Positions 8,077 to 26,080 of a DNA stretch of 36,588 nt are shown here, piece after piece. Made by a program: the position numbers and the translations under genes. The stretch comes from Minisyncoccota bacterium. GTDB lineage: Bacteria; Patescibacteriota; Minisyncoccia; Phycocordibacterales; UBA12079. The first letter of the stretch is position 1; every line of letters starts with the position of its first letter. Under the pieces are notes generated by a model. The model was not told where the DNA came from, did no database searches, and worked only from the letters and a program-made list of their open reading frames with translations. The stretch is from assembly GCA_023140255.1 (NCBI GenBank), contig JAGLLX010000002.1:1-36588 (forward strand), written 5' to 3'.

Positions 8077-10254
8077 TTATTCCAAATGAATAAGTTTCTC
8101 TAATTCGGAAATTTTTTCTAAAATAAGAGGGTGGTTTTGAAGTTCAGAATCACCCTCTATTATTTTTTTAGCTTCTGTTTGGGCTGCTTCTACTAATTTA
8201 ATATTTTTGATAGCTTCCATTGCTAAGTCAGACATTCCCCATTGTTTATTCCCAATCAATTCTCCAGAGCCTCTTAGTTTTAAATCAAATTCAGCTAATT
8301 CAAATCCGTTTTTTGCGGTTTTTAAGGCTTCTAATCTTTTTAAAGTTTTTTCGGTTTTTGTATCACTAAAAACAAAACAATAAGCTTGGTGGTTAGATCT
8401 GATAACTCTTCCACGAAGTTGGTGAAGTTGAGCTAGACCAAATCTTTCAGCTCCTTCTAAAATAATCATTGTCGCATTTTCAACATTCACCCCAACTTCA
8501 ACAACAGAAGTAGCAACGAGAATAGCGGTTTTACCAGAAGAAAAATCGTTCATAATTTCTTCTTTTTCAGAAGCTTTCATTTTGCTATGTAAAATTCCAA
8601 TTTCATATTCAGGGAAAACTTCTGTTTTAAGTCGTTGGGCTTCTGCAGTAACAGATTTTACTCGTAAAGCTCCTGCTTTATTAGGGTCAGGTTCTTCAAT
8701 ACGAGGGCAAATTACATATAATTGTCTTCCTTCTTCTAACTTTTCTTTTATTTTTTCATAAGTGCTATCTCTTTGCTGAGGAGTAACAATTTCAGTAATA
8801 ATTGGCTTTCTTCCATGAGGCATTTGGTCTAATAAAGTTAAATCAAGGTCTCCATAAATACTTAATGCAAGAGTTCTAGGAATAGGGGTAGCAGTCATAG
8901 AGAGTAGATGAGGAATTAACTCTTTGGTTTTAGAATTAGCCCTATTTTTTTTACTTAATTTTTGTCTTTGTAATATACCGAATTTGTGTTGTTCATCAAT
9001 AATAATATAAGCAAGGTTTTTAAATTCTACTGATTTTTGAATTAAGGAATGTGTTCCAATTAAAATTGGAATTTCTCCGTTGGCTACCCATTTTAAGAGT
9101 TGGGCTTTAGAGATTTTTGTCCATTCAGTGGGATTTACTTTTGACGGAAACTTAAAACAACCAGAAGAAGTAATCAAACCAATATTGATATTTAGATATT
9201 CAAAAAATTTAATAAAAGATTCAAAATGTTGTTTTGCTAAAATTTCAGTTGGTACCATATAAGCTGTTTGTAGATGAGCTGATGGTTGGTTTTTAGGGGA
9301 AGTGGTAGTAATAGCATAAATAGTGGCTGCAGCCACAGCAGTTTTTCCAGAACCAACATCTCCTTCTAATAAACGATTCATTGCATAGTCTTTTTTAAAG
9401 TCTTCTAGAATGGTTTTGATTGAACTTAGTTGAGATTCTGTTGCTTTGAAGGGAAATTTTTTGATAAAGTCGTTTAACTCTTTTTGGGTCTTAGATATTT
9501 TGAAGGAGGGGTTTTTTTGATACTCGGTTTTTTGCTTGGCTCTTAGAAGAGAAATAAAAAATATTTCTTCAAAAGCAAATCTTTTTTTTGAGGCTTGGGC
9601 GTCTGATTTTTTCTGAGGAGTATGAATCCAGATTAAAGCTGTTTTTAAAGTAGGAAGATTATATTTTTTTAAAATTTCTTTAGAAATAGGGTCTGAAATT
9701 TTATCTAAGATTCCTTCTGAAAATATTTTTTCAATTTTGTGATAGATCCATTTTGAATTTAGTCCGCGAGTTTCAGAGTAGACAGGAAAAATAAAGGAGT
9801 CAGAATCTTTTTCTTGAAATAAAGTTTCTTCAGATATAATAGGAAGAGAAGAAACATTTTGATATTCTGGATTAGCTAAATATAATTTTCCGTTTCTTTC
9901 TGAAATAGTTCCTGTAAATTTAGCATAAGATCCTTCAGCTAACATTTTTGAGATATAAGCTTGGCGAAACCAAATAGCTTTAATTACTCCACTAGCGTCT
10001 TCAAGAGTAGCTTCAGTCATTGGAATTTTTTTATAATAAGCTTTTGTGGCTTTTATTTTTTTAACTTGAGCGTAAATAATTATTTTGTCTCCTTTCTTTA
10101 GATTTTTAATTTCTTTTAAATCTTCAGTGCTTTCATAACGAGAAGGGAAATAAAACAATAAATCTTTAAGAGTATTTAAATCAAGCCTTTTCAATGCTTT
10201 TTTTTGGGCTTCAGTAGTTCTAAATTCTTTTTGTATAAGCGAGTTTAGTTTCAT
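8077..10254 (-). CDS. recG: ATP-dependent DNA helicase RecG
   Basis: 725 residues, typical length. The N-terminal part holds the helical region and OB-fold wedge (about 50-150, e.g. GDKIIIYAQVKKIKATKAYYKKIPM and YAKFTGTISERNGKLYLANPEY). The helicase core has Walker A GDVGSGKT at 298-305, DEQH at 420-423 (Walker B), SMTATPIPRTLALSIYGDLD, and motif VI QLRGRVIRS. The end AEFDLKLRGSGELIGNKQWG is the conserved TRG-type region. RecG reverses stalled replication forks and processes recombination intermediates. It converges on the zinc-ribbon gene; its 5' side abuts an inverted-repeat element beginning within a few bases of the ATG. Confidence 0.97.
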   Translation of the reverse strand: MKLNSLIQKEFRTTEAQKKALKRLDLNTLKDLLFYFPSRYESTEDLKEIKNLKKGDKIIIYAQVKKIKATKAYYKKIPMTEATLEDASGVIKAIWFRQAYISKMLAEGSYAKFTGTISERNGKLYLANPEYQNVSSLPIISEETLFQEKDSDSFIFPVYSETRGLNSKWIYHKIEKIFSEGILDKISDPISKEILKKYNLPTLKTALIWIHTPQKKSDAQASKKRFAFEEIFFISLLRAKQKTEYQKNPSFKISKTQKELNDFIKKFPFKATESQLSSIKTILEDFKKDYAMNRLLEGDVGSGKTAVAAATIYAITTTSPKNQPSAHLQTAYMVPTEILAKQHFESFIKFFEYLNINIGLITSSGCFKFPSKVNPTEWTKISKAQLLKWVANGEIPILIGTHSLIQKSVEFKNLAYIIIDEQHKFGILQRQKLSKKNRANSKTKELIPHLLSMTATPIPRTLALSIYGDLDLTLLDQMPHGRKPIITEIVTPQQRDSTYEKIKEKLEEGRQLYVICPRIEEPDPNKAGALRVKSVTAEAQRLKTEVFPEYEIGILHSKMKASEKEEIMNDFSSGKTAILVATSVVEVGVNVENATMIILEGAERFGLAQLHQLRGRVIRSNHQAYCFVFSDTKTEKTLKRLEALKTAKNGFELAEFDLKLRGSGELIGNKQWGMSDLAMEAIKNIKLVEAAQTEAKKIIEGDSELQNHPLILEKISELEKLIHLE

Positions 10255-11034: not shown

Positions 11035-11074
11035 AAAAAGTCAACGGCTCACCTAGGTGAGCCGTTGACTTTTT
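11035..11074 (+). terminator. Terminator of rubrerythrin (perfect 20-bp palindrome)
   Basis: Arms GTCAACGGCTCACCT and AGGTGAGCCGTTGAC are exact complements with no loop, flanked by A5 and T7. It is bidirectional in form. Confidence 0.9.
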
Positions 11075-11388: not shown

Positions 11389-11406
11389 ATTCCATTTAAA
11401 TGGAAT
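11389..11406. promoter_or_regulatory. Palindromic operator, site 1
   Basis: ATTCCATTTAAATGGAAT, a perfect 18-bp palindrome. Its centre lies 105 bp upstream of the centre of site 2, about ten helical turns. Confidence 0.7.
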
Positions 11407-11493
11407 GTAAACAGCTTAGTTTTTACAAATGCAAATAATAAGATCATTTTTTAATGAGATTTAAATAGCTATTTAAAGATATTAACTTATATT

Positions 11494-11511
11494 AGTCCAT
11501 TTAAATGGAAT
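11494..11511. promoter_or_regulatory. Palindromic operator, site 2, over the -35 region
   Basis: AGTCCATTTAAATGGAAT, one mismatch from site 1. It covers the -35 position of the promoter at 11517-11525, so a bound repressor would block transcription of the regulator gene. Confidence 0.75.
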
Positions 11512-11516
11512 AATTA

Positions 11517-11525
11517 TGTTATAAT
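11517..11525 (+). promoter_or_regulatory. Extended -10 promoter of the TrpR/YerC-like gene
   Basis: TG-T-TATAAT, directly downstream of operator site 2. Confidence 0.65.
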
Positions 11526-11565
11526 AATAGAAAAGAAGGTGTTTAATATATTTAAATAAAATAAT

Positions 11566-12012
11566 ATGGTTAGAGTGTCAAAACAAAAAATCGATAAAAA
11601 AGTTTTAAATCAAATTAATAATAGGTTAGTTGATGTTATTTCTAAATTGGAAACTAACATTTCTATAGCAAATTTTTTAAATGATCTATTAACTGAATCT
11701 GAAAAAATTGTTTTAGCGAAAAGACTTGCTATTATTTTTATGCTTCAAGAAAATATAAGTTGGTATAAAATATCTGTTTTGTTAAAAGTAAGTCCAACTA
11801 CTGTTAAAAAAGTAGTAATTGATATTGATTTAGAAGAATATGAAAATATCTTAAAAATTGTTAAACAAAGAAAAAATAGAATTACTTTTTGGGCTGGAAT
11901 GGACTTAACTTTAAGAATAGGAATACCTTCACTAGTAGGAGCAGGTCAATGGAATCTTTTAGATGAGATATATGAAAAATATCAAATTAAAAAGAACACT
12001 AAAAAGGAATAG
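11566..12012 (+). CDS. TrpR/YerC-like DNA-binding regulator
   Basis: 148 residues. The central part (FLNDLLTESEKIVLAKRLAIIFMLQENISWYKISVLLKVSPTTVKKV) matches the TrpR/YerC-YecD helix-turn-helix family, whose core is an all-helical dimer. The C-terminal extension of about 60 residues (FWAGMDLTLRIGIPSLVGAGQW) is not part of classical TrpR. Four copies of one palindrome surround the gene, one over its own promoter, so autoregulation is likely. No tryptophan gene is nearby, so tryptophan as ligand is not implied. The start is taken at the first ATG; no Shine-Dalgarno is evident. Confidence 0.8.
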   Translation: MVRVSKQKIDKKVLNQINNRLVDVISKLETNISIANFLNDLLTESEKIVLAKRLAIIFMLQENISWYKISVLLKVSPTTVKKVVIDIDLEEYENILKIVKQRKNRITFWAGMDLTLRIGIPSLVGAGQWNLLDEIYEKYQIKKNTKKE

Positions 12013-12043
12013 TAAGGAAGAAAGTTTAAACATACCCTCTACT

Positions 12044-12061
12044 ATTTCATTTAAATGGAAT
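12044..12061. promoter_or_regulatory. Palindromic operator, site 3
   Basis: ATTTCATTTAAATGGAAT, one mismatch, embedded in a longer near-palindrome (TCTACT on the left, AGTAGA on the right). It is 32 bp after the regulator's stop codon. Confidence 0.65.
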
Positions 12062-12063
12062 AG

Positions 12064-12290
12064 TAGAGAATTAAGTATAGACAAAGACAAATATAAAAAA
12101 GTTGCTGAAGGATTTGAGAATGAAAATAATTAGTTATTAGTTAAAGGAGTTGTGGCTAAAGAAAAGGAGTTTTAGTAGATGTAAGAAGTTTAAGATAATA
12201 ATCTTCTTACTATTCCATTTAAATGGAATAGTAGAGGGTGTATTTTTATAGATTAAAGTATAAAAATGTGTTATTTTATATTAAATATAA
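12064..12290. other. Non-coding stretch after the TrpR-like gene
   Basis: No open reading frame of note. It contains a hairpin GTAAGAAG/CTTCTTAC at 12181-12210 next to operator site 4, then AT-rich sequence that probably serves as the tRNA-Ser promoter region. Confidence 0.4.
12212..12229. promoter_or_regulatory. Palindromic operator, site 4
   Basis: ATTCCATTTAAATGGAAT, perfect, again within longer flanking symmetry (TACT/AGTA). The right flank AGTAGAGGGT mirrors the left flank of site 3 (ACCCTCTACT), so sites 3 and 4 form the ends of a 200-bp inverted arrangement. Confidence 0.65.
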
Positions 12291-12293
12291 CAT

Positions 12294-12345
12294 GGAGAGC
12301 TGGCTGAGGGTGGACGACGAATGTTCAAACACATTCATTTCCATC
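12294..12345 (+). pseudogene. 5' remnant of tRNA-Ser and decayed continuation
   Basis: GGAGAGCTGGCTGAG repeats the first 15 nt of the intact tRNA-Ser at 12380 with one change, and the AT-rich sequence just upstream (TTAAATATAA) is shared as well. After the D-loop the match ends; a T-arm-like GAATG-TTCAAACA-CATTC follows. Confidence 0.6.
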
Positions 12346-12379: not shown

Positions 12380-12466
12380 GGAGAGTTGGCTGAGCGGTTT
12401 AAAGCGCATCCCTGCTAAGGATGTGGGGAGGAAACTCCCTCGAGGGTTCGAATCCCTCACTCTCCG
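12380..12466 (+). tRNA. tRNA-Ser(GCU)
   Basis: 87 nt without CCA. Acceptor GGAGAGT/ACTCTCC, anticodon stem CATCC/GGATG with loop CTGCTAA (anticodon GCT at 12414-12416), long variable arm TGGGGAGGAAACTCCCTC as in class II tRNAs, T-arm GAGGG TTCGAAT CCCTC, discriminator G. It reads AGC/AGU. Confidence 0.95.
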
Positions 12467-12519
12467 CAGTGAATACTTGTTATCGGCAGACCTTGGTGCC
12501 TTAATAGACAAGTATAAAT

Positions 12520-13934: not shown

Positions 13935-15257
13935 TTATTTTATCTCAACAACTTTTTTAGTTATAACAATCTTAGATTTAAAGCATCCCATTAATTCTCT
14001 TTTTTCTTCATTAGTTCCATCTTTAAGAATATATTTAGAGTAGGTTTTTAAATCTATGTCTTTATGTTTTGTATTTTTGTTTTGGATTCCTAAAACTCCA
14101 CGATTAAATTTGTTAAATCTTTTTAATTCTTTTTCAAACTTTATTTGTACACCAGTATTATTTAAATCTATTGAATCAAGAATCTTTACTAATTGATTGG
14201 TTAGTTCTTCTTCTCTAATGTATGGATTTTTACAACAACGATCTTTTGATCTTCCACATCCATAATAAATATATCTTGCTGAAGTTCCATCCTTAAGTTG
14301 CTTATACTTTTCCTCTGCTGAAATTCCAGAGCCACACAATCCACAAACCATTAATTTAGTGAAAGCAAATTCTTTGCTTTGTCTGACTATATTATCTCGT
14401 TTAAGTTGTATTTGAACTTTATCGAAGATTTCTTTTGTAACTATTGGCTCATGTTTTCCTTTATACCAATTACCTGACCCTCTAGGATATTCAAAAGTTC
14501 CGTAATAAAAAGAGTTTTGTAATAAACGATAGATATTACTAAGTGCGAGATTATGGTTACCAACTGATTTAAAATTTAATTCAAATTTAAGCCATTGATG
14601 TATTTTTCTACCCGACCATTTTTCATAAGCCATCTTTTCAAATATCTTTTTGATAATCGGAGAACGATCTGAATCAATGATAACTTGGCACTTCTTGTCC
14701 ATTTCTTTTTGATTAAGATAACCAACAGGAGCAACTCCAGGCCATAATCCCATCTCACATCTTGTCCTTAATCCTCGTTTTACATTTATGCCTCTGTTAT
14801 CATTTTCCAGTTTTGCTTGCGAACCTAAAATCATTAATAAGAACTTTTCATTTGGGTTGTTACCAAATTGTTGTCCAAATGTTCTAATATCTAAAAGATG
14901 ACCTGAATCCATTAAGTCTACTACCTTTCCAAGATCACCTGCATTTCTAGAGATACGATCAGGAGCCCAAGTTAATATCCCATTATACTTGCCTTGTTTA
15001 ATTTCTTCTATAATTTCGTTAAAAATAGGTCTTTGTCCTGTTTCTTTAGCTGAATGACTTTCTTTTTTCATAGAGACTACTTCAAGTCCCTCTCTGTCAG
15101 CTAATAGAAGCATTTCTTTAATCTGTGAATCTATTGAAAGTATCTGTCTTTCTTCAGATTCTGTTGATTTACGAGCATAAAGACAGTACTTCACTTTAAC
15201 CGCAGGTATAACAATTTTCTCATTCAAAGTTGTTTTTATAGGGCTTTCTATCTGCAT
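13935..15257 (-). CDS. Large serine recombinase (site-specific integrase/resolvase)
   Basis: 440 residues. N-terminal resolvase domain with the catalytic motif YARKSTESEERQ (Arg29, Ser31), SIDSQ and later RPIFNEII, TWAPDRISRNAGDLG; the middle Recombinase domain; and a zinc ribbon with CGLCG followed by YYGCGRSKDRCC. Large serine recombinases integrate and excise phages and integrative elements between att sites without host factors. At 440 residues it is shorter than phiC31-type integrases and lacks an obvious long coiled coil. It sits between an S24 repressor and a type I restriction locus, so it probably moved, or still moves, this island. The att sites are not identified. Confidence 0.92.
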   Translation of the reverse strand: MQIESPIKTTLNEKIVIPAVKVKYCLYARKSTESEERQILSIDSQIKEMLLLADREGLEVVSMKKESHSAKETGQRPIFNEIIEEIKQGKYNGILTWAPDRISRNAGDLGKVVDLMDSGHLLDIRTFGQQFGNNPNEKFLLMILGSQAKLENDNRGINVKRGLRTRCEMGLWPGVAPVGYLNQKEMDKKCQVIIDSDRSPIIKKIFEKMAYEKWSGRKIHQWLKFELNFKSVGNHNLALSNIYRLLQNSFYYGTFEYPRGSGNWYKGKHEPIVTKEIFDKVQIQLKRDNIVRQSKEFAFTKLMVCGLCGSGISAEEKYKQLKDGTSARYIYYGCGRSKDRCCKNPYIREEELTNQLVKILDSIDLNNTGVQIKFEKELKRFNKFNRGVLGIQNKNTKHKDIDLKTYSKYILKDGTNEEKRELMGCFKSKIVITKKVVEIK

Positions 15258-15368
15258 ACTTACATACTATCGCTATGGTTTTAAAAGTCTAGGTTATTTG
15301 TTGGTAACTAAATTACCCTTATTTTTCAATGTGAGTTAAGATGTTAAGTTATGATAACCTATGAAGGC

Positions 15369-15397
15369 TTGACTTTGTATTTACGACGCGATAGAAT
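15369..15397 (+). promoter_or_regulatory. Promoter of the type I restriction locus
   Basis: TTGACT, 17-nt spacer, TAGAAT, ending 13 nt before the hsdM ATG at 15411. It rules out an in-frame ATG at 15351, which lies upstream of the promoter. Confidence 0.7.
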
Positions 15398-15410
15398 ACT
15401 TATTAATATT

Positions 15411-17096
15411 ATGCGTAAAGATATAAAAGCAAAATTAAAAGAAATGCCAGAACTACTTACTATTGGACAAGTAGCCGAGGTTTTTTCTATCCATCCTGAT
15501 ACTCTTAGAAATTGGGATAAAGAAGGTATTTTGGTTCCTTTGCGAGTAGGAACAAGAAAAGACCGAAAATATAGACCTCAAGATATTCAAACTATTATGG
15601 ATAAAATGGGTAGTAAACTTACACTTCCCCAACTAGAGCAATTCCTTTGGAAAAGTGCTGATATTCTTCGAGGTAAAATTGATGGTTCTGATTATAAGAA
15701 ATATATTTTTGGACTACTTTTCTTCAAAAGAATTAGCGATGTTTGGGATGAAGAATACAAAAAAACAAAAAAAGAGTATGGGGATAAAAAAATTGCTCGT
15801 GCTGATTACAATCATCGCTTCCAAGTTCCTAGAGAATGTCGTTGGGCTGTCGTAGAAGAACAAGCAGAAAATATTGGTCAAAAACTTAATGAGATTTTTG
15901 ATAAGTTAGCAAATGCTAATAGTCCTAAATTAGATAAAATTTTTGATGATTTGGACTTTGCTAATAAAGATCGTTTCCCTAATGAAACCACTCAACGATT
16001 AATAAATCATTTTTCTCAATATAATTTTGGTGATACCTATATAAGTTCGGATTTGCTTGGAGATGCATATGAATATCTAATTAAACAATTCGCAGCGGAT
16101 GCAGGAAAAAAAGGTGGTGAATTTTATACGCCACGAGAAGTTGAAAAAGTTATTGTTGAAATTTTAAAACCTCACAAAAAAGATCATATCTATGATCCAA
16201 CTGCCGGATCGGGAGGATTTCTTCTTGAATCTTTTCATTATTTAAAAAATAAAGAAAATGAATCAGTAGCAAGAACTCTCTATTTAAACGGACAAGAGTT
16301 AAATATAGGAACTTTCGCAATTGCAAAAATAAATATGTTTTTGCACGGACTAGACGGAGCTGACATTCAGAGAGGAGATACTTTAGCAAATCCACAATTT
16401 CTAAATCCAAATGGAAGCTTGAAAACTTTTGATATTGTTGTGGCAAATTTTCCGTACGCAATCAAAGATTATGAATACAATATTTTAAAAACAAATAAAT
16501 ACGGAAGAATTGATGGATATGAAATGCCTCCTAAGAAAAATGCTGATTATGCTTTTATCTTACATATAATTAAATCAATGAATTCAAACGGAAGAGCAGG
16601 GGTTGTTGTTCCTCATGGGGTTTTATTCAGAGCAGGAGCTGAAGGTCGCATCCGAGAACAAATATTAAAAAATGATTTAATTGACACTATCGTTACTCTC
16701 CCTCCAAAACTCTTTTATGGAACAGGAATTCCTGCATCTATTCTCATTTTTAATAAAAATAAAACAGAGGGAAGAAAAAATAAAGTTTTGTTTATCAATG
16801 CTGAAAAAGAATTTTCAGAGGATAAAAATCAAAATTCACTTCGTGTTCAAGATATTCAAAAAATAGCAAAGACATACGATAAGTATAAAGATATTGAAAA
16901 TTATGCTCGTGTGGTTGATCTAAAAGAGATAGCAGAAAATAAATACAATTTGAATGTAAGTCTTTATATTGAAAATGGAGAAAAAGAAGAAGAGATTGAT
17001 GTTTCTGTTGTTAAAAAGGAATTAATTCAATTAGAAAAAGAACGAACTAAAATTGATAAAAAAGTCGAAGGGTTTTTAAAAATACTTAAATATTAA
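15411..17096 (+). CDS. hsdM: Type I restriction-modification methyltransferase HsdM with N-terminal MerR-like HTH
   Basis: 561 residues from the ATG at 15411. Residues about 14-62 (LLTIGQVAEVFSIHPDTLRNWDKEGILVPLRVG..RKYRPQDI) form a MerR-type winged helix, which is unusual on HsdM. The HsdM helical N-domain follows (LEQFLWKSADILRG...FGLLFFKRISDVWDEEY), then the N6-adenine methyltransferase fold with motif I YDPTAGSGGF. Motif IV reads NFPY (DIVVANFPYAI) instead of the usual NPP[FY]. The end is a coiled-coil-like region. It methylates adenine in the site chosen by HsdS. First gene of a tightly packed six-gene run; the fused HTH may let the enzyme control its own promoter, which is inference. 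Confidence 0.93.
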   Translation: MRKDIKAKLKEMPELLTIGQVAEVFSIHPDTLRNWDKEGILVPLRVGTRKDRKYRPQDIQTIMDKMGSKLTLPQLEQFLWKSADILRGKIDGSDYKKYIFGLLFFKRISDVWDEEYKKTKKEYGDKKIARADYNHRFQVPRECRWAVVEEQAENIGQKLNEIFDKLANANSPKLDKIFDDLDFANKDRFPNETTQRLINHFSQYNFGDTYISSDLLGDAYEYLIKQFAADAGKKGGEFYTPREVEKVIVEILKPHKKDHIYDPTAGSGGFLLESFHYLKNKENESVARTLYLNGQELNIGTFAIAKINMFLHGLDGADIQRGDTLANPQFLNPNGSLKTFDIVVANFPYAIKDYEYNILKTNKYGRIDGYEMPPKKNADYAFILHIIKSMNSNGRAGVVVPHGVLFRAGAEGRIREQILKNDLIDTIVTLPPKLFYGTGIPASILIFNKNKTEGRKNKVLFINAEKEFSEDKNQNSLRVQDIQKIAKTYDKYKDIENYARVVDLKEIAENKYNLNVSLYIENGEKEEEIDVSVVKKELIQLEKERTKIDKKVEGFLKILKY

Positions 17097-17100
17097 TGAT

Positions 17101-18543
17101 ATGATTAAAAATGATACTAATATGAATTTGGTTAAAAAAGAAGAAGATTCAACTCAAGCATTGCAGTTATTTGAAGAGCTTGTATTAAAAAGTATAGAAT
17201 CATACGGTCTGCCTGTCAGAAATGTTTTAGTTGCAACAGAAGAAAGAGCCGTTATATTTAAAAATATGTTGCCTGTTTTGCAAAAAGTAGAACCTAGTAA
17301 AATAAAAGATTCTGTTTATATTTCAAAATTTTTAGCAGCTTCTGCTGTAGGTTTATTTGACGCTGCTTTAAATTATTTATGGGATGAAACTATTTCAGAA
17401 ATTCGGAAAAGGGCGGTTATTTATGACATACAATATTTTTATGATAATGCAACGAATAGCGAAAGAAAGAGAAAGAAATTAAAAAAAGAAGAAGATATTA
17501 TTAAGTTAGACGATCACGAGCTTATACAAGGTGCTCGTAAAATAGGTTTAATTTCAGAAATTGGATATAAACATCTAGATTTTATAAGATTTAATAGAAA
17601 TTGGGCTAGTGCAGCTCATCCAAACCAGAATAAATTAACGGGATTAAAATTGATTTCTTGGCTGGAGACTTGTGTTGAGGAGGTTATCTCATTACCTCTT
17701 TCTAATGTTGCTATTGAAATACAGAAATTATTAATAAACATTAAGAGTAATGAAATTACAGAAGAAGATTCTAAAAAAATAATTTCTTTTTTTGATGAGC
17801 TTCCACAAAAACAAGCAAATAATTTAGCTTTGGGTTTTTTGGGAATATATACAGATGAAGATATATCTCCCACAACTCGTCAAAATATAAAATATTTAGC
17901 TCCTTCTCTGTGGGAAATGATTGAAGAGGAAACAAAAGTAAATATAGGGATACGTTATGGAAAGTTTATGGCTAATAACGATGAAAGCGGAGCTTCTTTG
18001 ATAAGAGGTTTCTTGGATATGGTTGAAGGGTCTTCGTATATTCCTGAAAATATAAAAATAGTTGAGATAGAAGATGCTATGGAAAATTTATTAGACATTC
18101 ACCATGCAATAAATAATTTTCACAATGAACCTATATTTGCAAAAGAGTTATACAATATTATTGGTAAAGATAATAAAATTCCTTCATCTATAATGAAAAA
18201 AACAGTATTTGGTATTATAGAAGTTTTTTTAACGAACGGGTATGGTGTAGCTTTTTGTGCCGAAAAATACTATATAGAATTGATTAAACAATTTAGTCAA
18301 AAAGAAGCCTTTTTTGCACTTATTTCTTTTACTGAAGAAGGAATAGCAAGTACTTTACAATTTTCTTTATGTGAAAATAAATATAGAGAATTATTAAATT
18401 TAATTAAAGACAAACTTACTTCTAGCGTTATTTTAGAGTTATTTGAAAAGGTTAGAAAATTTCAAGGAGATATTAGTTTAATTGGAAAAGATACAGATAT
18501 CAAACAAAAAATAGCTAATGCAAAAGTTATTTTAAAAAAATAA
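17101..18543 (+). CDS. Putative HEPN-type protein embedded in the type I RM operon
   Basis: 480 residues, no named family recognised. The N-terminal ~200 residues are helical and contain FIRFNRNWASAAHPN, with R166-N167-(x5)-H173, which fits the R-x(4-6)-H catalytic motif of HEPN ribonucleases (the RN...H variant). The remainder is an all-helical, repeat-like region without cysteine-rich or ATPase motifs. It starts 4 bp after hsdM and ends 12 bp before hsdS, so it is part of the operon. By analogy with PrrC and RloC, RNA-cleaving proteins that accompany type I systems, it may act as a back-up abortive-infection effector; unlike them it has no ABC ATPase domain. The function is inference. Confidence 0.6.
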   Translation: MIKNDTNMNLVKKEEDSTQALQLFEELVLKSIESYGLPVRNVLVATEERAVIFKNMLPVLQKVEPSKIKDSVYISKFLAASAVGLFDAALNYLWDETISEIRKRAVIYDIQYFYDNATNSERKRKKLKKEEDIIKLDDHELIQGARKIGLISEIGYKHLDFIRFNRNWASAAHPNQNKLTGLKLISWLETCVEEVISLPLSNVAIEIQKLLINIKSNEITEEDSKKIISFFDELPQKQANNLALGFLGIYTDEDISPTTRQNIKYLAPSLWEMIEEETKVNIGIRYGKFMANNDESGASLIRGFLDMVEGSSYIPENIKIVEIEDAMENLLDIHHAINNFHNEPIFAKELYNIIGKDNKIPSSIMKKTVFGIIEVFLTNGYGVAFCAEKYYIELIKQFSQKEAFFALISFTEEGIASTLQFSLCENKYRELLNLIKDKLTSSVILELFEKVRKFQGDISLIGKDTDIKQKIANAKVILKK

Positions 18544-18555
18544 AATCTTAAATTG

Positions 18556-19710
18556 ATGAAAACTAAAGAAAAACAAAAAAATATTCCAAAAGGTTGGAAA
18601 ATTAAGAAAATTAAAGACTTACTTGATTACGAAAGACCTGATAATTATATCGTCAAAAATACTAATTATAGAGATGACAAAAAGATCCCAGTACTTACAG
18701 CAAACAAATCATTCATTTTAGGTTATACAGATGAAGATTTTGGTATTTATGAAAATACTCCAACTATAATTTTTGATGATTTTACTACAGATAGTAAGTA
18801 TGTTGATTTTCCTTTTAAAGTTAAATCATCGGCTATAAAAATTTTAAAAGAAAAAAATAATGACATAGATTTAAGGTTTGTTTATGAAAAAATGAAATCC
18901 ATTGATTTTCCAAGGGGAAATCATAAGAGATACTATATTTCTCAATATCAAGAAATGAATATTTTGACACCGCCTTTTAAAGAACAACAAAAAATTGCGG
19001 AGATTTTAGAAACGGTTGATAAAGAAATAAAAAAAACTAATGAGATTATAAACAAAACAGAAAAGTTGAAAAGAGGGATAATGCAAAAACTTTTTATTCA
19101 AAAGGATAGAGACAAAAAATTTAAAAATAGAAAAGTTAACGAAATAGCAAATGTTTTAACAGGGAAAACACCTAAACGAATAAAAAAAGAATTTTATGAA
19201 AACGGTATCTTCCCTTGGGTTAAAAGTACAGAAGTTAATTTTGAAAGAATAAAAGATACTTCTGAAAAAATAACGAAAGATGCTATTAGAATTGAAAATA
19301 TGAAAATAGTTCCAAAGGGGGCTGTTTTGGTTGCTATGTATGGACAAGGAGTAACGAGAGGAAAAAGTGCAATTTTAGATTGTGAGGCAACAACTAATCA
19401 AGCCATTGCTTCAATTGTTCCAAATTCTGAATTAACGACAGACTATTTATTCTATTGGTTATCTTTTCAGTATGAAAATCTTAGAAATTTAGGGCATGGA
19501 GGTAATCAAAAAAATTTAAATTTAGATATTATTAAAAATATAGAAATTTTTCTCCCAGATACAAACTATCAGAAAAAAATTACAAAAATTCTTTCAGCTG
19601 TTGATGAAAAAATTTCAGTTAATAAAAAGCTAAAAGAAAAATTAACTCAACTCAAAAAAGGCCTTTCTCAAGACCTTTTGAGTGGTGAGGTTAGAGTTCT
19701 AATAACATGA
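18556..19710 (+). CDS. hsdS: Type I restriction specificity subunit HsdS
   Basis: 384 residues from the ATG at 18556 (a TTG directly before it is the only alternative). Two target recognition domains (about 10-130 and 195-335) are separated by the central conserved helix (PFKEQQKIAEILETVDKEIKKTNEIINKTEKL) and followed by a similar C-terminal helix (YQKKITKILSAVDEKISVNKKLKEKL...LSGEVRV). The second TRD begins with the typical ...VLTGKTP...GIFPWVKSTEVNF. It defines the bipartite DNA site for HsdM and HsdR. The stop overlaps the next start by ATGA. Confidence 0.93.
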   Translation: MKTKEKQKNIPKGWKIKKIKDLLDYERPDNYIVKNTNYRDDKKIPVLTANKSFILGYTDEDFGIYENTPTIIFDDFTTDSKYVDFPFKVKSSAIKILKEKNNDIDLRFVYEKMKSIDFPRGNHKRYYISQYQEMNILTPPFKEQQKIAEILETVDKEIKKTNEIINKTEKLKRGIMQKLFIQKDRDKKFKNRKVNEIANVLTGKTPKRIKKEFYENGIFPWVKSTEVNFERIKDTSEKITKDAIRIENMKIVPKGAVLVAMYGQGVTRGKSAILDCEATTNQAIASIVPNSELTTDYLFYWLSFQYENLRNLGHGGNQKNLNLDIIKNIEIFLPDTNYQKKITKILSAVDEKISVNKKLKEKLTQLKKGLSQDLLSGEVRVLIT

Positions 19711-20867
19711 TTTCAAAAAAAGAGATAGAAAGAATTATAGAGTATAAATTGTTGGGGCTAAAAGCACTCGGAGCTTTTGTTGTTGTTCTTTTTCAAAGTT
19801 CTATATTTTTTATATTTTATTTTATAATTGATATCTCACTCAGTTTTTATCAAAAGTATCAAGGTGATAAGAATCAAGATCTTTCTAACGAAGAAGTAAC
19901 AACTATTAAAAAAACAGCCACAAAAACACAAAAAACTCTTGATAAATTGGCTAGAGATCAAAAAGAATACAATATGGAAGAAGTTAGAAGAAAAGAATCT
20001 CTTTCTTTATTAAATAAACTTCTTACAGAAAGTGAAGTTCGAGAAAAAGATTTGTTATCACTTACCAGCACATCAGAATATTATCAACTTTTTGTTTACA
20101 GTGCCTCTCTTAGTCGGTTAGTTAAGTCATTAGACATTCCTGATTTTGGAACACAACCAAATAGACTTTACCCGATTTTTTTAAAAGATCTTGGTTTCGC
20201 AAGATTAGGGAAAGGATCCCCCTCTCTTTTGATAAATAAAAACAATTTAAAAGAAAAAAAACTTACAGATATTAAAGAATTTAAAAAGTTCTTGATGTAT
20301 CATTTTAGTAAAGTTAGAGGTAAAGAATGGAAAGATTTTATAGAAAAAGTTAAAAGTTTTGATAAAAATAAATCACAAAAATTAAAAAAAATTAATTATA
20401 GAGATATGGGTTATTTAAAAATTAATTTTTTACTAACCGAGACAAATATGAATATTACAAATGTTGGACTTGTTGATGGTGAACATTTAGGTCTTGGAAG
20501 TGTAAAAAACGATGAAGATATAAATAGACAAATACTTTTAAGAACTAATATTAAATCTGAATCAGATAAAGAAGATTTAAAAATTCGTATTAGAAAAGTT
20601 ATAAACAAACAAGATATATCTTTTCTCTTAAATGGAATATCTAAAAAAATTAAATTAAAAATTGAATCAGAACAAGATACTATAAAAGAAAATTTAAATA
20701 TTAAAACGGTGTTAGGTTTTAGTACAATAAATGAATCTGATTTAAAAAAAGAACTTGTACGAGTAGGATTAAACGAAAAAGAATCAAAATCTGTCTCGAA
20801 TAAAATAATAAGTCGTACCCAAGAATATCAATTAGCATTAGATAACTTACAAATAAATATAGAATAA
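19707..20867 (+). CDS. Membrane-anchored accessory protein of the RM operon
   Basis: 386 residues, family not recognised. A hydrophobic stretch at about 17-45 (LGLKALGAFVVVLFQSSIFFIFYFIIDIS) predicts one or two membrane passes near the N-terminus. A long charged helical segment follows (TTIKKTATKTQKTLDKLARDQKEYN...), then a mixed soluble domain with no motif I can name. It overlaps hsdS by 4 bp (ATGA) and hsdR by 1 bp (TAATG), so translation is coupled with both subunits. This suggests a functional part of the system, perhaps anchoring it at the membrane. That role is inference. Confidence 0.7.
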   Translation: MISKKEIERIIEYKLLGLKALGAFVVVLFQSSIFFIFYFIIDISLSFYQKYQGDKNQDLSNEEVTTIKKTATKTQKTLDKLARDQKEYNMEEVRRKESLSLLNKLLTESEVREKDLLSLTSTSEYYQLFVYSASLSRLVKSLDIPDFGTQPNRLYPIFLKDLGFARLGKGSPSLLINKNNLKEKKLTDIKEFKKFLMYHFSKVRGKEWKDFIEKVKSFDKNKSQKLKKINYRDMGYLKINFLLTETNMNITNVGLVDGEHLGLGSVKNDEDINRQILLRTNIKSESDKEDLKIRIRKVINKQDISFLLNGISKKIKLKIESEQDTIKENLNIKTVLGFSTINESDLKKELVRVGLNEKESKSVSNKIISRTQEYQLALDNLQINIE

Positions 20868-23773
20868 TGAAATTCAACGAACAATATACAATAGAAAATC
20901 ATATCATTAAGTTCTTAGAAAAAGAGCTTAGTTATGAATACATAAAACCGAAGGACTTTGCAAAACTGCGGGAATTTGAAAATGAATATATTATTTCATC
21001 TCTTTTGCTTGATGCTATAAAAAAAATAAATAATGTTTCTGAAGATGAAGCTAAATCTGTATTACGAGAAGTTAGAAAAATAGATAATAATGAAGATTTT
21101 CTTAAAACTTTCCGTAATGGAATAAATCTCAAAGATTCTGAAACTGGGAAAATGAGAGATTACTTTATTATTGATTTTGATAATCTTGAAAATAATCGTT
21201 TTGTAGTAACCAATCAATTTTATTTTGAAGGAAATTCTGAAAATATAAGAACTGATGTTTTGGTATTTTTAAATGGTTTGCCTATTGTAAATATTGAAGC
21301 TAAAAGTCCTACCGCTTCAAGCACTGTAAATTATGCAAACGCTGTTGGACAAATAAAGAGATACGAGAGAAATGCCTTTAAACTTTTTTGGCCAAATTGT
21401 TTTAATATTGCTACTGACGGGCTAGAAACAGTTTATGGAGCTACTTATTCTCCAGCTCAGTATTTCTTGAAATGGAAAGAGGAGGAATTAAGTAAAAAAT
21501 ATGAAGAAGAACTTGAGATGACTTTATTTGCCTTATTATCGCAAGAAAGATTATTGGATATTATCAGAAATTTTATTCTTTTTGATAAAGATAAAGAACA
21601 AACCATAAAAAAAATTGCTCGATATCAACAATTAAGAGCAACTAATAAAATTGTAGAAAGAGTTAGAAAGGGAGAAGATAAAAGAGGACTTATTTGGCAT
21701 ACTCAAGGATCAGGGAAATCACTGACTATGTTTTTTACTGCATGGAAGTTACGATTTAATAAAAACTTAAAAAATCCAAAAATTTTTATCTTGGTTGATA
21801 GAATTGATTTAGATGATCAAATTTATGAAACTTTCGCAAATTGTGGAGGAGAAAATGTTGTGCGAGTAAATTCTCGTCGTGATCTTGAGAGAAAAATAAA
21901 ATCATCTGAAAGAGGAATTTTTATTTCAACTATTCAAAAGTTTTCTGAATTAGGAAATGATGTGAAAAATCTCGATGAAAATATAATTGTGCTTTCTGAC
22001 GAAGCTCACCGAGACAATGAGGGAATTTCAGCAATCAATTTAAGAAGTTCAATGGAAAATGCTTTTTTCTTTGGCTTTACAGGAACTCCTATTGATAGAA
22101 CTACTTTAAATACTCATAGAAATTTTGGAGCTGAAGGAGAAAGGTATCTTGATTATTATTCAATCAAACAAGCTATTGATGATGGAACTACTCTCCCTGT
22201 TACATATGAGGCAAGATTATCTAAATTTTTTATTGATGAAGAAAAACTTGATAAACAATTTGAAGAAATGACTGAAGGGCTTTCGGAAAAAGAAAAGGAA
22301 CAAATATCTAAAAAATATGGAAGAAAAGAAGCTATTGTAAAACTTGATAAACGAATGGAAGCAATTGCTCAAGATATTGTGGAACATTTTAAATTATATG
22401 TTGAACCCACAGGATTTAAGGCTCAGATTGTTTGTTATGATAGAGAGGCTACAGCTAAGTATAAAGAACTTCTTGATAAACTTGTCCCTAAAGACTGGTC
22501 AACCGTTATTTATTCCGCAGGTGATCCAAATACAAGTCCTGAAGAATTACAAAAATATAATACTACCAAGGCAAAAAGAGAGAAATTAATTAATGACTTT
22601 AAAGACCCTAATAGTCCTTTAAGGTTTTTATTAGTGTGCGATATGCTCTTGACTGGTTTTGATGCTCCTATTGAACAAGTGATGTATTTAGATAAGCCTC
22701 TCTGGGATCATAATCTTTTACAAGCTATTGCTAGAACCAACAGAATCTATCCAAATAAAGGAGCTGGGAAAATTATTGATTATTACGGAATAACTAAAAG
22801 TTTACATAAAGCTTTAGATTTTGATGAAAGTGAAGTTGATTCTGCGATGATTAATATAGATAAACTTAAAGAAGAATTCAAAGATATTCTAGATGAAATT
22901 ATGGATATTTTTATAAATGTAAATATTGAAGATCCTTCAATCGAGAATCTTCGTCGTTGTTTGAAAATATTTGCCGAAAATAATGAGAAGCAAAAATTCT
23001 TTAGTAATAAATATGGGCGATTAAAACTTTTGTTTGAAGTTTTGTCCCCTGATCCTTTTTTGAAAGAATTTGTGAGAAAGTTTGGATGGTTAACTAGTGT
23101 TTATATTGCTTTTAGTAAAGAATTTGGTGAAAGTGCTTATAGCTCAGAAGTTTTGGCTGAATATGGAGAAAAAGTTAAAAATTTAATTCAACAAAGAGTT
23201 GATTATGAAGGAATTACAAAAAATTTCAGGGAATTAAATATAAATGATTTATATGTGATGGAAAGACTGAATAAAATGGATGATGAAGATAAAGCTTTAA
23301 ATCTTGAAAAGATGTTGAAGCAAGAAATTTCTTTAAATGTTGATACAAATCCTGCTTACAAAAAATTTAGTGAAAGATTATCAGCCATCAGAAAAGAATT
23401 TGAGAAAAATCAAATTGATTTAGCTGAAAGAATTAAGCGATATCAAGAACTACTTGAAGATATAAAAAATAAAGGTGATGAAGCTAAAGAGCTTGGATAT
23501 TCATTAAAAGAATACGGACTTTATGTAATTTCGGAGGAATTTATTAAAGGAGACAAAAATCTGATAAGAGAATTTATTCAAGAAATGTCTAAAAGAATCG
23601 AAGGGGTTCTTGACGGAGGATGGCAAGAATCTTCTAAAAGAGATGAATTTCTGAAAGAAGTTAAACGAATTATTCAAGAATTAATACTAAAAGAATATAA
23701 AGAAAAAATAGAAGTTTCTGATTTCCATAAATATCTAAATCGTCTAGTAGACATCATAATTAAAAAATTCTGA
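20867..23773 (+). CDS. hsdR: Type I restriction endonuclease/translocase HsdR
   Basis: 968 residues, typical length. The N-terminal PD-(D/E)xK nuclease has Asp130 (RTDVLVF) and E144-A-K146 (VNIEAKSP). The SF2 motor has Walker A TQGSGKS at 279-285, DEAH at 378-381, motif III FTGTPI, and motif VI-like QAIARTNRIYP. A C-terminal helical region contacts the methylase. It translocates DNA with ATP and cleaves far from the recognition site when unmethylated. All catalytic residues appear present, so the system looks intact. It ends TGA, 2 bp before the next gene. Confidence 0.96.
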   Translation: MKFNEQYTIENHIIKFLEKELSYEYIKPKDFAKLREFENEYIISSLLLDAIKKINNVSEDEAKSVLREVRKIDNNEDFLKTFRNGINLKDSETGKMRDYFIIDFDNLENNRFVVTNQFYFEGNSENIRTDVLVFLNGLPIVNIEAKSPTASSTVNYANAVGQIKRYERNAFKLFWPNCFNIATDGLETVYGATYSPAQYFLKWKEEELSKKYEEELEMTLFALLSQERLLDIIRNFILFDKDKEQTIKKIARYQQLRATNKIVERVRKGEDKRGLIWHTQGSGKSLTMFFTAWKLRFNKNLKNPKIFILVDRIDLDDQIYETFANCGGENVVRVNSRRDLERKIKSSERGIFISTIQKFSELGNDVKNLDENIIVLSDEAHRDNEGISAINLRSSMENAFFFGFTGTPIDRTTLNTHRNFGAEGERYLDYYSIKQAIDDGTTLPVTYEARLSKFFIDEEKLDKQFEEMTEGLSEKEKEQISKKYGRKEAIVKLDKRMEAIAQDIVEHFKLYVEPTGFKAQIVCYDREATAKYKELLDKLVPKDWSTVIYSAGDPNTSPEELQKYNTTKAKREKLINDFKDPNSPLRFLLVCDMLLTGFDAPIEQVMYLDKPLWDHNLLQAIARTNRIYPNKGAGKIIDYYGITKSLHKALDFDESEVDSAMINIDKLKEEFKDILDEIMDIFINVNIEDPSIENLRRCLKIFAENNEKQKFFSNKYGRLKLLFEVLSPDPFLKEFVRKFGWLTSVYIAFSKEFGESAYSSEVLAEYGEKVKNLIQQRVDYEGITKNFRELNINDLYVMERLNKMDDEDKALNLEKMLKQEISLNVDTNPAYKKFSERLSAIRKEFEKNQIDLAERIKRYQELLEDIKNKGDEAKELGYSLKEYGLYVISEEFIKGDKNLIREFIQEMSKRIEGVLDGGWQESSKRDEFLKEVKRIIQELILKEYKEKIEVSDFHKYLNRLVDIIIKKF

Positions 23774-23775
23774 TA

Positions 23776-24348
23776 ATGAAAAAAGATATTACATTAAAAA
23801 ATAAAAAAATCTCATACACCCTTAAAAAGAGCACGAGGGCTCGAAGAATGAGGTTGGCGGTTTATTGTGATGGAAGTATAGTCGTAACCACTCCTCTTGG
23901 TTTGAGAGGAAATATTGTAGAAAAGTTTTTAACTGAAAAAACCCAATGGTTATTTACTAAATTAAATTTTTTTAAGCAATTTGAGGGCAAAGCAATTACA
24001 AAGTATAGTCATGAAGACTATTTAAAATTTAAAAAAGAAGCCTGTATCTTAGCTGAAAATAGAATTTCTTATTTTAATAAAACATATAAATTAAAATACA
24101 ATAAAATAAGTATAAAAAATCAAAAAACCCGTTGGGGTAGTTGTTCAAAAAAAGGTAATTTAAATTTTAATTATAAGATAGCGCTTTTGCCTGAAAAAAT
24201 TTCTGATTATATTATTGTTCACGAATTATGTCACCTAAAAGAATTTAATCACTCAAAAAAATTCTGGAATTTAGTTGCTAAAGCGATTCCTGATTATTTA
24301 GAAATTAAAAAAGATCTCAAAAAAAGTGGTTATCAATTTTATAAATAA
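23776..24348 (+). CDS. YgjP-like (DUF45) zinc metallopeptidase
   Basis: 190 residues. RARRMRLAVYCDGSIVVTTPLG at the start, KTRWGSCSKKGNLNFNYKIALLP, then the zinc motif HELCHLKEFNH with H149, E150, H153 and H159, and FW after it. This is the YgjP/WLM-type metallopeptidase often found next to hsdR in type I operons. Its role there is not established; cleavage of a partner protein, or DNA-protein crosslink repair as in SprT/Wss1 relatives, has been discussed for related folds. It starts 2 bp after hsdR and closes the operon. Confidence 0.9.
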   Translation: MKKDITLKNKKISYTLKKSTRARRMRLAVYCDGSIVVTTPLGLRGNIVEKFLTEKTQWLFTKLNFFKQFEGKAITKYSHEDYLKFKKEACILAENRISYFNKTYKLKYNKISIKNQKTRWGSCSKKGNLNFNYKIALLPEKISDYIIVHELCHLKEFNHSKKFWNLVAKAIPDYLEIKKDLKKSGYQFYK

Positions 24349-24396
24349 AGAAGTTGTATTTATAAAATAATTGAAATTTCAGAAATTTTATGCACA

Positions 24397-25065
24397 ATGA
24401 ATATTAATGTAATTATAGGAGAATTAAATAAAACTCTTTACGAAAAACAACCTAAAAAAATAAGTAGCTCATGGATAGTCCAAAATGTTCCTCGTGCATA
24501 TAGATATATACACAAAAATATTAGAACTGAAACAAATGAAATAGACTGGGATAAAGTTACAAGTCTTTTGGAAAGAGATTTTCAAAAACGTTGGGTAAGG
24601 TATCGGAGAAAAGTAGTAAAGCCTTACACAAATAAAAAAGAAGTAGACATTGTTTTAAATAAATATAAAGATAAGTTATATACATTTATTACTTCGCTTG
24701 ATGATAGTGATTTTACTTCTAGAGATAAAATTCTTATATCCCTAGTTCGTCTATCTCAAAAAGGTAATGTTCTAGCCCAACAAGAATTAGTTATTTTACT
24801 GAAATACACTGTTGATGATTGGATTGATCGTTATTACTATTTAAAAAAATGGAAGGGCTATACTGATGATGTAGAAGACAAAATAAAAGGATGTATCCGT
24901 TGTTATAGATACACAGGTTCTTTTCTTGGTTATTTATATAAAACATTAGAGTATTCAGGAAGAGGTATTGTTCCTGTTCAAAAATTTTCTCTTGATGATC
25001 CTGTATTAGATGGGGTAAGAACGAGGATTGATTATGTTGTAGTGGAGGAAGATGAAGTTAGTTGA
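24397..25065 (+). CDS. Sigma-70 region 2-like protein, probably a divergent sigma factor
   Basis: 222 residues. The stretch from about 125 to 190 (LSQKGNVLAQQELVILLKYTVDDWIDRYYYLKKWKGYTDDVEDKIKGCIRCYRYTGSFLGYLYKTLEYSGRG) resembles sigma-70 region 2: a G-x-x-x-A-x-x-x-L start, a D-x-x-D segment and an aromatic GSFLGYLY helix. FSLDDPV afterwards resembles the sigma linker sequence. No region 4 HTH is seen, so promoter use is uncertain. The N-terminal ~100 residues are basic and unassigned. It lies 48 bp after the RM operon and just upstream of two predicted structured RNAs. Confidence 0.45.
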   Translation: MNINVIIGELNKTLYEKQPKKISSSWIVQNVPRAYRYIHKNIRTETNEIDWDKVTSLLERDFQKRWVRYRRKVVKPYTNKKEVDIVLNKYKDKLYTFITSLDDSDFTSRDKILISLVRLSQKGNVLAQQELVILLKYTVDDWIDRYYYLKKWKGYTDDVEDKIKGCIRCYRYTGSFLGYLYKTLEYSGRGIVPVQKFSLDDPVLDGVRTRIDYVVVEEDEVS

Positions 25066-25367
25066 CTAAAAGAAGAAATAAACGACGGTTAATGTTAATC
25101 GCTTCGCAACCGCCTAAAAATGAGTTAACATGTAGAATAATATCAATAAGTTTGGTATTATATTCATTAACAATTAAATATTAGTAGCCTAACCCTTTTG
25201 AATTTCAGGAGATATGGTGAAAAAATCCGCTAAAGTATAAAAGACTCCTAGTCAAAGTCACTTTAGCGGTCGTGCAGGGAAACTTGTACGGGTGGGCCTC
25301 GGTTCATCGCAATGGCTAGGAGCCTTTTGTATTCTCAAGGTTCCAACCATTTAAATCCGCTAAAGTT
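25066..25367. other. Leader region with repeats and alternative stems
   Basis: 302 bp without a gene. It holds CGGTT/AACCG and ATGTTAA/TTAACAT pairings at 25085-25131, then the structured segment described at 25225-25366. Confidence 0.5.
25225..25366 (+). ncRNA. Structured RNA / leader with a three-copy switch motif
   Basis: ATCCGCTAAAGT occurs at 25225-25236 and again at 25355-25366, two bases before the ATG of the next gene; the complement ACTTTAGCGG lies between them at 25260-25269. A long stem AAAAGACTCCTAG (25239-25251)/CTAGGAGCCTTTT (25316-25328), one mismatch, closes a domain with a CGTGCA/TGTACG hairpin and a GGGCCTCGGTTCATCGC segment. The middle copy could pair with either outer copy, which would expose or hide the start region. 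It may be a cis-regulatory switch or an independent RNA. Confidence 0.55.
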
Positions 25368-25893: not shown

Positions 25894-26080
25894 AACAATT
25901 AAATAAAAGTCTTGGTCTAGAAGAATATATAGCGATAAATTATATATTCAACCAGTAGACGGAACATCCACTGCTCTACCCCGATCAAAGTTGAAGCTAA
26001 CTTTGTCTATAACCAAGCAATTCTATTTTAATAGAATTTGAGGTGAGGGCCTTCGAACTTAATTAAGTTTGAAGGCCCTT
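25894..26080 (+). ncRNA. Putative four-helix-junction RNA with strong terminator
   Basis: No reading frame is credible. Closing stem CTTGGT (25911-25916)/ACCAAG (26012-26017) encloses three hairpins: GAATATATA/TATATATTC (25923-25949), CAGT/ACTG (25953-25973) and AAAGTT/AACTTT (25987-26004), giving a cloverleaf-like junction. An extended -10 promoter lies just upstream and a near-perfect 32-bp terminator palindrome at the end. The unpaired GCTCTACCCCGATC between hairpins is a candidate binding segment. It matches no RNA class I know. Confidence 0.6.

Follow-up and report, generated by a model that had tools for sequence, protein, structure and literature searches.

The window, by which we mean the whole stretch of 36,588 nucleotides that was analyzed, is contig 9 of the 16 contigs that make up a 564-kb genome, whose closest named relatives include Candidatus Paceibacterota MAGs. 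It contains a small gene of the TrpR family with copies of a palindrome on either side, two upstream and two downstream. The features of the locus are as follows.

11389-11406, no strand: palindrome copy 1, upstream of the gene, exact ATTCCATTTAAATGGAAT
11494-11511, no strand: palindrome copy 2, upstream of the gene, AGTCCATTTAAATGGAAT, one mismatch; overlaps a weak -35-like hexamer at 11500-11505
11500-11528, + strand: candidate promoter TTTAAA - 17 - AATAAT, overlapping copy 2; at chance level
11566-12012, + strand: TrpR-family gene, 148 aa, Trp_repressor domain at aa 20-84 plus a conserved C-terminal extension
12037-12068, no strand: palindrome copy 3, core 12044-12061 with one mismatch; 24 bp past the stop codon
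12208-12233, no strand: palindrome copy 4, downstream of the gene, core 12212-12229 exact, within a 26-bp perfect palindrome

The first-pass annotation had reported exact or one-mismatch copies at 11389, 11494, 12044 and 12212, and all four were recovered, two exact and two with one mismatch. The downstream copies are the tips of longer palindromes, that of copy 3 being 32 bp long with one mismatched pair. The statement that the window holds no other copy was also correct; a weak fifth site at 26020 has three mismatches to ATTCCATTTAAATGGAAT. Shuffled windows contained 0.15 sites on average, none of 100 reached five, and chance would give 0.0002 occurrences of the exact word ATTCCATTTAAATGGAAT in a genome of 564 kb. 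The four palindromes of the window are real and far beyond chance.

The gene had been called TrpR/YerC-like. Membership in the TrpR family was upheld by PF01371 (Trp_repressor), which scored 38.2 bits against a gathering cut-off of 27 and was the sole Pfam match of the open reading frame above threshold. The YerC part of the name did not stand, since the protein reached 23.2 of the 42.2 bits needed for the YerC/HisR equivalog TIGR02531. It likewise fell below the TrpR equivalog TIGR01321 (19.2 versus 67.25 bits). The C-terminal extension carries the motif GxPxxxGxGxW...L...Y. PF01371 was matched at E<=0.001 by all 17 aligned relatives. In Pfam scans of 17 proteins, all 17 matched only Trp_repressor or other small helix-turn-helix domains; no catalytic domain was detected in any of them, and no Y1 (HUH) transposase domain. 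The predicted structure of the window protein, of low confidence (mean pLDDT 48), has six N-terminal helices and two C-terminal ones. Among the adjoining genes, read by eye, no amino-acid pathway partner was seen. Neighbor names (uvrD, ksgA, comM, rpiB, priA, recG, rnhA etc.) were generally read from the sequence by eye; rubrerythrin, the tRNAs and the proteins with in-gene palindromes were named by searches. A phage origin of the gene was considered and rejected, as viral contigs scanned with alignment A2 yielded no relative.

Other elements were seen in the surroundings. A 40-bp loopless perfect palindrome (11035-11074), with the tip CTCACCT/AGGTGAG and a T-run, follows the rubrerythrin gene. 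Related tips at C12:4626, C12:12890 and L039:1226 suggest a second palindrome family in this genome. Just downstream of copy 4, positions 12291-12310 repeat the 5' end of a tRNA-Ser (12380-12467), perhaps as a remnant of integration. The region 3' of this tRNA (13935-25065) holds a serine-recombinase-like gene, a type I restriction-modification-like cluster and related genes, and resembles an integrated defence island as read by eye. A LOOT RNA (RF03000) lies at 25186-25308 (68.6 bits versus a cut-off of 46.4).

The bracketing is not peculiar to the window. Within the order, 76 of 98 loci have near-identical palindromes flanking the gene upstream and downstream, and the palindrome differed from gene to gene. 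These 98 loci are the best 101 of 135 matches minus three (G117 and G093, with in-frame stops, and G330:C8:244764); the 34 weakest matches were left out. When flanks were paired across different genomes, 12% of 965 pairs passed, a control inflated by palindromes common to related genes, and neighboring genes passed in 2 of 86 cases. Under a stricter test, which demanded an identical perfect palindrome of at least 18 bp on both sides, 50 of the 98 loci passed versus 0.5% of 1921 controls. Elsewhere in the phylum, 15 of 27 loci were bracketed (29 new loci, less two with in-frame stops), compared with 9 of 521 controls. No matched pair was detected in 22 of the order-level and 12 of the phylum-level loci, some of which lie at contig ends or have imperfect palindromes. 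In the 76 bracketed loci, the upstream palindrome is often centered about 17 bp before the start, and the downstream one lies within 50 bp past the stop in 52.

The relatives had been expected to carry the same sites. Orthologues do have palindromes at the same positions, but the sequence differs. In G002, both the window gene and a paralogue described below occupy the same neighborhoods as in G000, and each palindrome differs from its G000 counterpart, the change being shared by the upstream and downstream copies.

The variation between palindromes is related to the protein. In a test on 56 of the 76 bracketed loci, those among the best 67 matches, residues 78 and 82 ranked first of all protein columns for half-site base -4 (p=6e-11 and 7e-9, respectively), followed by the next-best column at p=1e-4 (n=56). 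The two residues align to A and R in ATITR, a stretch of the recognition helix of E. coli TrpR, positions that we take to be Ala80 and Arg84. Half-sites ending in CGATA are associated with S78 and mostly R82, those in CAGTT or CAGTA mostly with T78 or A78 and K82, those in TGATA with D78 and R82 or K82, and those in ACTNN mostly with T78 or A78 and S82. Exceptions are four S78 proteins without G at -4, one K82 protein without A at -4, and two proteins with A at -4 that lack K82. On the tree of the 56 proteins, the CGA class changed 10 times (at least 6 forced by well-supported branches) and the CAG class 7 times (at least 5 forced). Sister pairs that switched half-site had mostly switched residue 78, 82 or both, as in G324 (CAG; T,K) and G341 C16 (CGA; S,R). 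Residues 3 and 43 also track the half-site. An earlier mutual-information ranking, weaker than the 56-locus test, had placed the nearly invariant column 52 and N-terminal columns high. The co-variation with residues 78 and 82 suggests that the protein very probably reads the palindrome, which would make the palindrome its putative binding site. An approximately 20-bp palindromic operator read by the recognition helix is a trait of the TrpR family; here it is seen by co-variation only.

The remainder of the window's own genome holds seven further good copies (two exact, one with one mismatch, four with two). ATTCCATTTAAATGGAAT belongs to a set that includes ATTCCAGTTAACTGGAAT and ACTCCATTTAAATGGAGT, with symmetry-preserving differences. 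The majority of the seven are located immediately 3' of genes, at the center of longer loopless inverted repeats with arms of up to 32 bp. None of these seven ATTCC-type solitary copies is in frame inside a protein gene. We entertained and dropped the idea that the solitary copy at C1:74457 is a scar left by the gene found between the same two neighbors in G005, because the interval varies in length across six genomes and does not align as an empty site. Contig 2 encodes the paralogue at G000 C2:82668-83066, a second TrpR-like gene with a different palindrome of its own, TTAGTTCAATC/GATTGAACTAA. One copy of it lies on one side of the gene and two lie on the other side, and three more are solitary at other places in the genome. 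We also note that at L051 ~9270-9315 (G000 C2) a TACTCCAATC/GATTGGAGTA palindrome is split at its exact center by a 22-bp piece, which resembles CTGCCTGCCGGCAGG repeats found elsewhere.

These data bear on the interpretation offered first, namely an ordinary autoregulated TrpR/HisR-type factor with a small promoter regulon, in which the downstream copies aid DNA looping. Such factors offer precedent, as PMC9413887 describes 20-bp palindromes and frequent autoregulation for HisR and TrpR, and upstream copies are present in most relatives. Copy 2 does overlap the -35-like hexamer that had been taken for the regulator's -35 (11500-11505, with a -10-like partner at 11523-11528), but such pairs occur at chance frequency (7 observed, 7.1 in shuffles). 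The spacings of 105 and 168 bp had been given correctly and are both multiples of 10.5. However, looping in helical phase was not borne out, neither in the up-to-down distances of the 76 loci (R=0.08) nor in 26 same-side spacings (R=0.25, p about 0.19). The frequency of downstream copies across the order also speaks against this interpretation, as does the fact that one genome may hold several differently specific genes. A conventional promoter regulon fits poorly as well, with solitary copies mostly 3' of genes here and inside genes in other genomes. Random scatter, or absence at orthologues, had been named as outcomes that would count against the regulon, and the result is mixed: copies are scattered but not at random, and orthologues have sites of a different sequence. 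We regard this interpretation as unlikely, if somewhat likelier than the other alternatives.

Dispersal is found well beyond this genome. The core TACGATATATCGTA occurs at least 5 times in 23 of 397 genomes, and the gene was detected in 19 of the 23 compared with 97 of the 397 overall (Fisher 2e-9); G027, G114, G178 and G202 are rich in copies without a detected gene. Copy-rich genomes hold 8-27 copies each, inside and between genes. Among 40 solitary copies with the exact 14-bp core, from three genomes picked for many copies (G051, G192, G198), 38 had a half-site identical over 10 bp to the palindrome flanking a resident gene. Accordingly, where a genome has several genes, its solitary copies fall into several matching sets.

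Of the 40 copies, eight are situated in frame within protein genes, which encode TsaD (twice), TruB, YchF, AlaRS, a reverse transcriptase and two glycosyltransferases. The core is open in all three frames, and all three are used (RYIV, TIYR, YDIS). TsaD of G051 has a 47-aa insertion at the in-gene copy, and net gains amount to about 6 aa in TruB and about 5 aa in YchF. A clean insertion in every case was rejected, because the AlaRS palindrome adds no net length relative to homologues; the claim is thus limited to a position in frame inside genes.

Could the palindromes be RNA hairpins or terminators that serve the gene and its neighbors, with an incidental link to the protein? Loopless perfect hairpins at gene 3' ends, such as the intergenic C1:70919-70982, would fit, and convergent genes flank 11 of the 50 catalogued copies. 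However, copies are found upstream of the gene too, and the downstream copies of the window have no T-run and are not among the hits of the terminator scan. The in-frame copies and the tracking of the recognition helix by the palindrome also argue against this explanation, which we consider improbable.

Between related genomes, gene and palindrome differ in place or presence. Within its family of genomes the gene occupies four different places. G001 has kept the neighborhood of the window gene, without gene or palindrome. In G003 palindromes are present and the gene was not detected; its rpiB-priA junction, one of the four places, lacks the gene and has a single perfect 28-bp palindrome of another sequence. 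The congeners G192 and G251 have different palindromes at corresponding positions (G192 C17 vs G251 C9) and also palindromes present in one and absent in the other (G192 C14 vs G251 C5; G192 C14 vs G251 C9). Beside their rnhA-like gene, the flanks on either side align at about 75%, and the gene and both palindromes fail to align. About ten copies in G192 form the tip of a repeat roughly 100 bp long; these mostly adjoin tRNA genes, and the repeat also occurs with other tips or none.

We also note that this structured repeat, GGGAATCGGCGTCAG...CTCCTGCCCGGACTC...GTCCGTCTTTCGATTCCC, has no Rfam match. It is found beside tRNA genes at L239:1957-2120, L283, L285 and L286 (G192, G251), and its tip is a hot spot for palindromes.

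A transposon-like unit, with the TrpR-like protein as transposase or its DNA-binding part and the palindromes as ends, would account for the likeness of the two ends, the changing position of the gene, the lone palindrome of G003 and the palindrome-free copies of the host repeat. Against it stand the lack of a catalytic domain in the 17 scanned proteins and the stable positions, both in G000 and G002 and beside the rnhA-like gene of G192 and G251. Because its places in G000 and G002 are conserved, there is no evident sign that the gene moves on short time scales. We judge this explanation to be about as improbable as that of hairpins or terminators. A chromosome-organizing protein with scattered sites, like those of the Noc, ParB or MatP families, would suit the number of copies in rich genomes and their location within and between genes, but is very improbable given that genomes encode several proteins of differing specificity, with a few sites for each, and that sites cluster at the gene.

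Known systems offer partial parallels. TrpR, HisR and YerC share the domain, the helix-turn-helix and a palindromic operator of about 20 bp, and for HisR PMC9413887 reports motifs that are lineage-specific, with autoregulation in about half of the genomes that have HisR. In contrast, the palindromes described here lie on both sides of the gene, differ per paralogue and are dispersed beyond promoters and into genes, and the protein, below both equivalog cut-offs, has an extra C-terminal extension. The closest analogue in behavior is the RAYT/REPIN system, in which a gene is likewise flanked by its own dispersed palindrome class. PMC3116915 describes several distinct single-copy RAYT genes per genome, each adjoining its own palindrome class, with dispersed copies and co-evolution. 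However, RAYT is a Y1 (IS200/IS605-like) transposase, whereas the protein here has no recognizable nuclease. REPINs are inverted pairs, chiefly extragenic, in hundreds of copies, as opposed to single loopless palindromes, some in genes, in tens at most. The in-frame copies recall Rickettsia palindromic elements, palindromic repeats in frame within unrelated protein genes (PMC10969869). Those elements measure about 150 bp, compared with 20-44 bp here, where a cognate DNA-binding gene is also visible.

Bracketing, recognition-helix co-variation, gene-matched dispersal and presence or absence in congeners are direct results of the computation. The explanation we favor, with a probability of roughly 0.7, is an autoregulated TrpR-family protein whose putative operator doubles as a dispersed palindromic repeat. 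The helix-turn-helix protein would bind its private 18-26 bp palindrome as a dimer. Since the upstream copies overlap the promoter/start region, autorepression is most likely. The copy shortly after the stop codon would close the unit and may serve as a roadblock or hairpin at the 3' end. The same palindrome would act as a dispersed repeat, whose gene-matched solitary copies occupy intergenic hairpins and in some genomes also stand in frame within genes. Gene and palindrome seem to co-evolve as a pair, much as RAYT and REP do. As no catalytic domain was found, spread would need host enzymes if the protein takes part. New copies probably arise through host replication or repair at hairpins and not through a transposase belonging to the element.

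Patescibacteria have reduced genomes with few annotated regulators. Among the openly licensed PMC papers listed in searches, none describes this combination in Patescibacteria or CPR in its title or abstract opening, which does not mean that it is unpublished. It is possible, though short of probable, that a selfish gene-palindrome partnership exists in this phylum, co-evolving by repeated specificity switches and with a palindrome that multiplies without a recognizable transposase. The palindrome would multiply into hairpin tips and the frames of essential genes, and the protein may guide or protect copies made by host replication and repair. The loci amount to a natural experiment on protein-DNA specificity, in which each of dozens of proteins is labeled by its own putative site on both sides of the gene. 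They also suggest a candidate for what drives the spread of short palindromic repeats that have no known transposase, a question still open for REP-like and Rickettsia-type elements.
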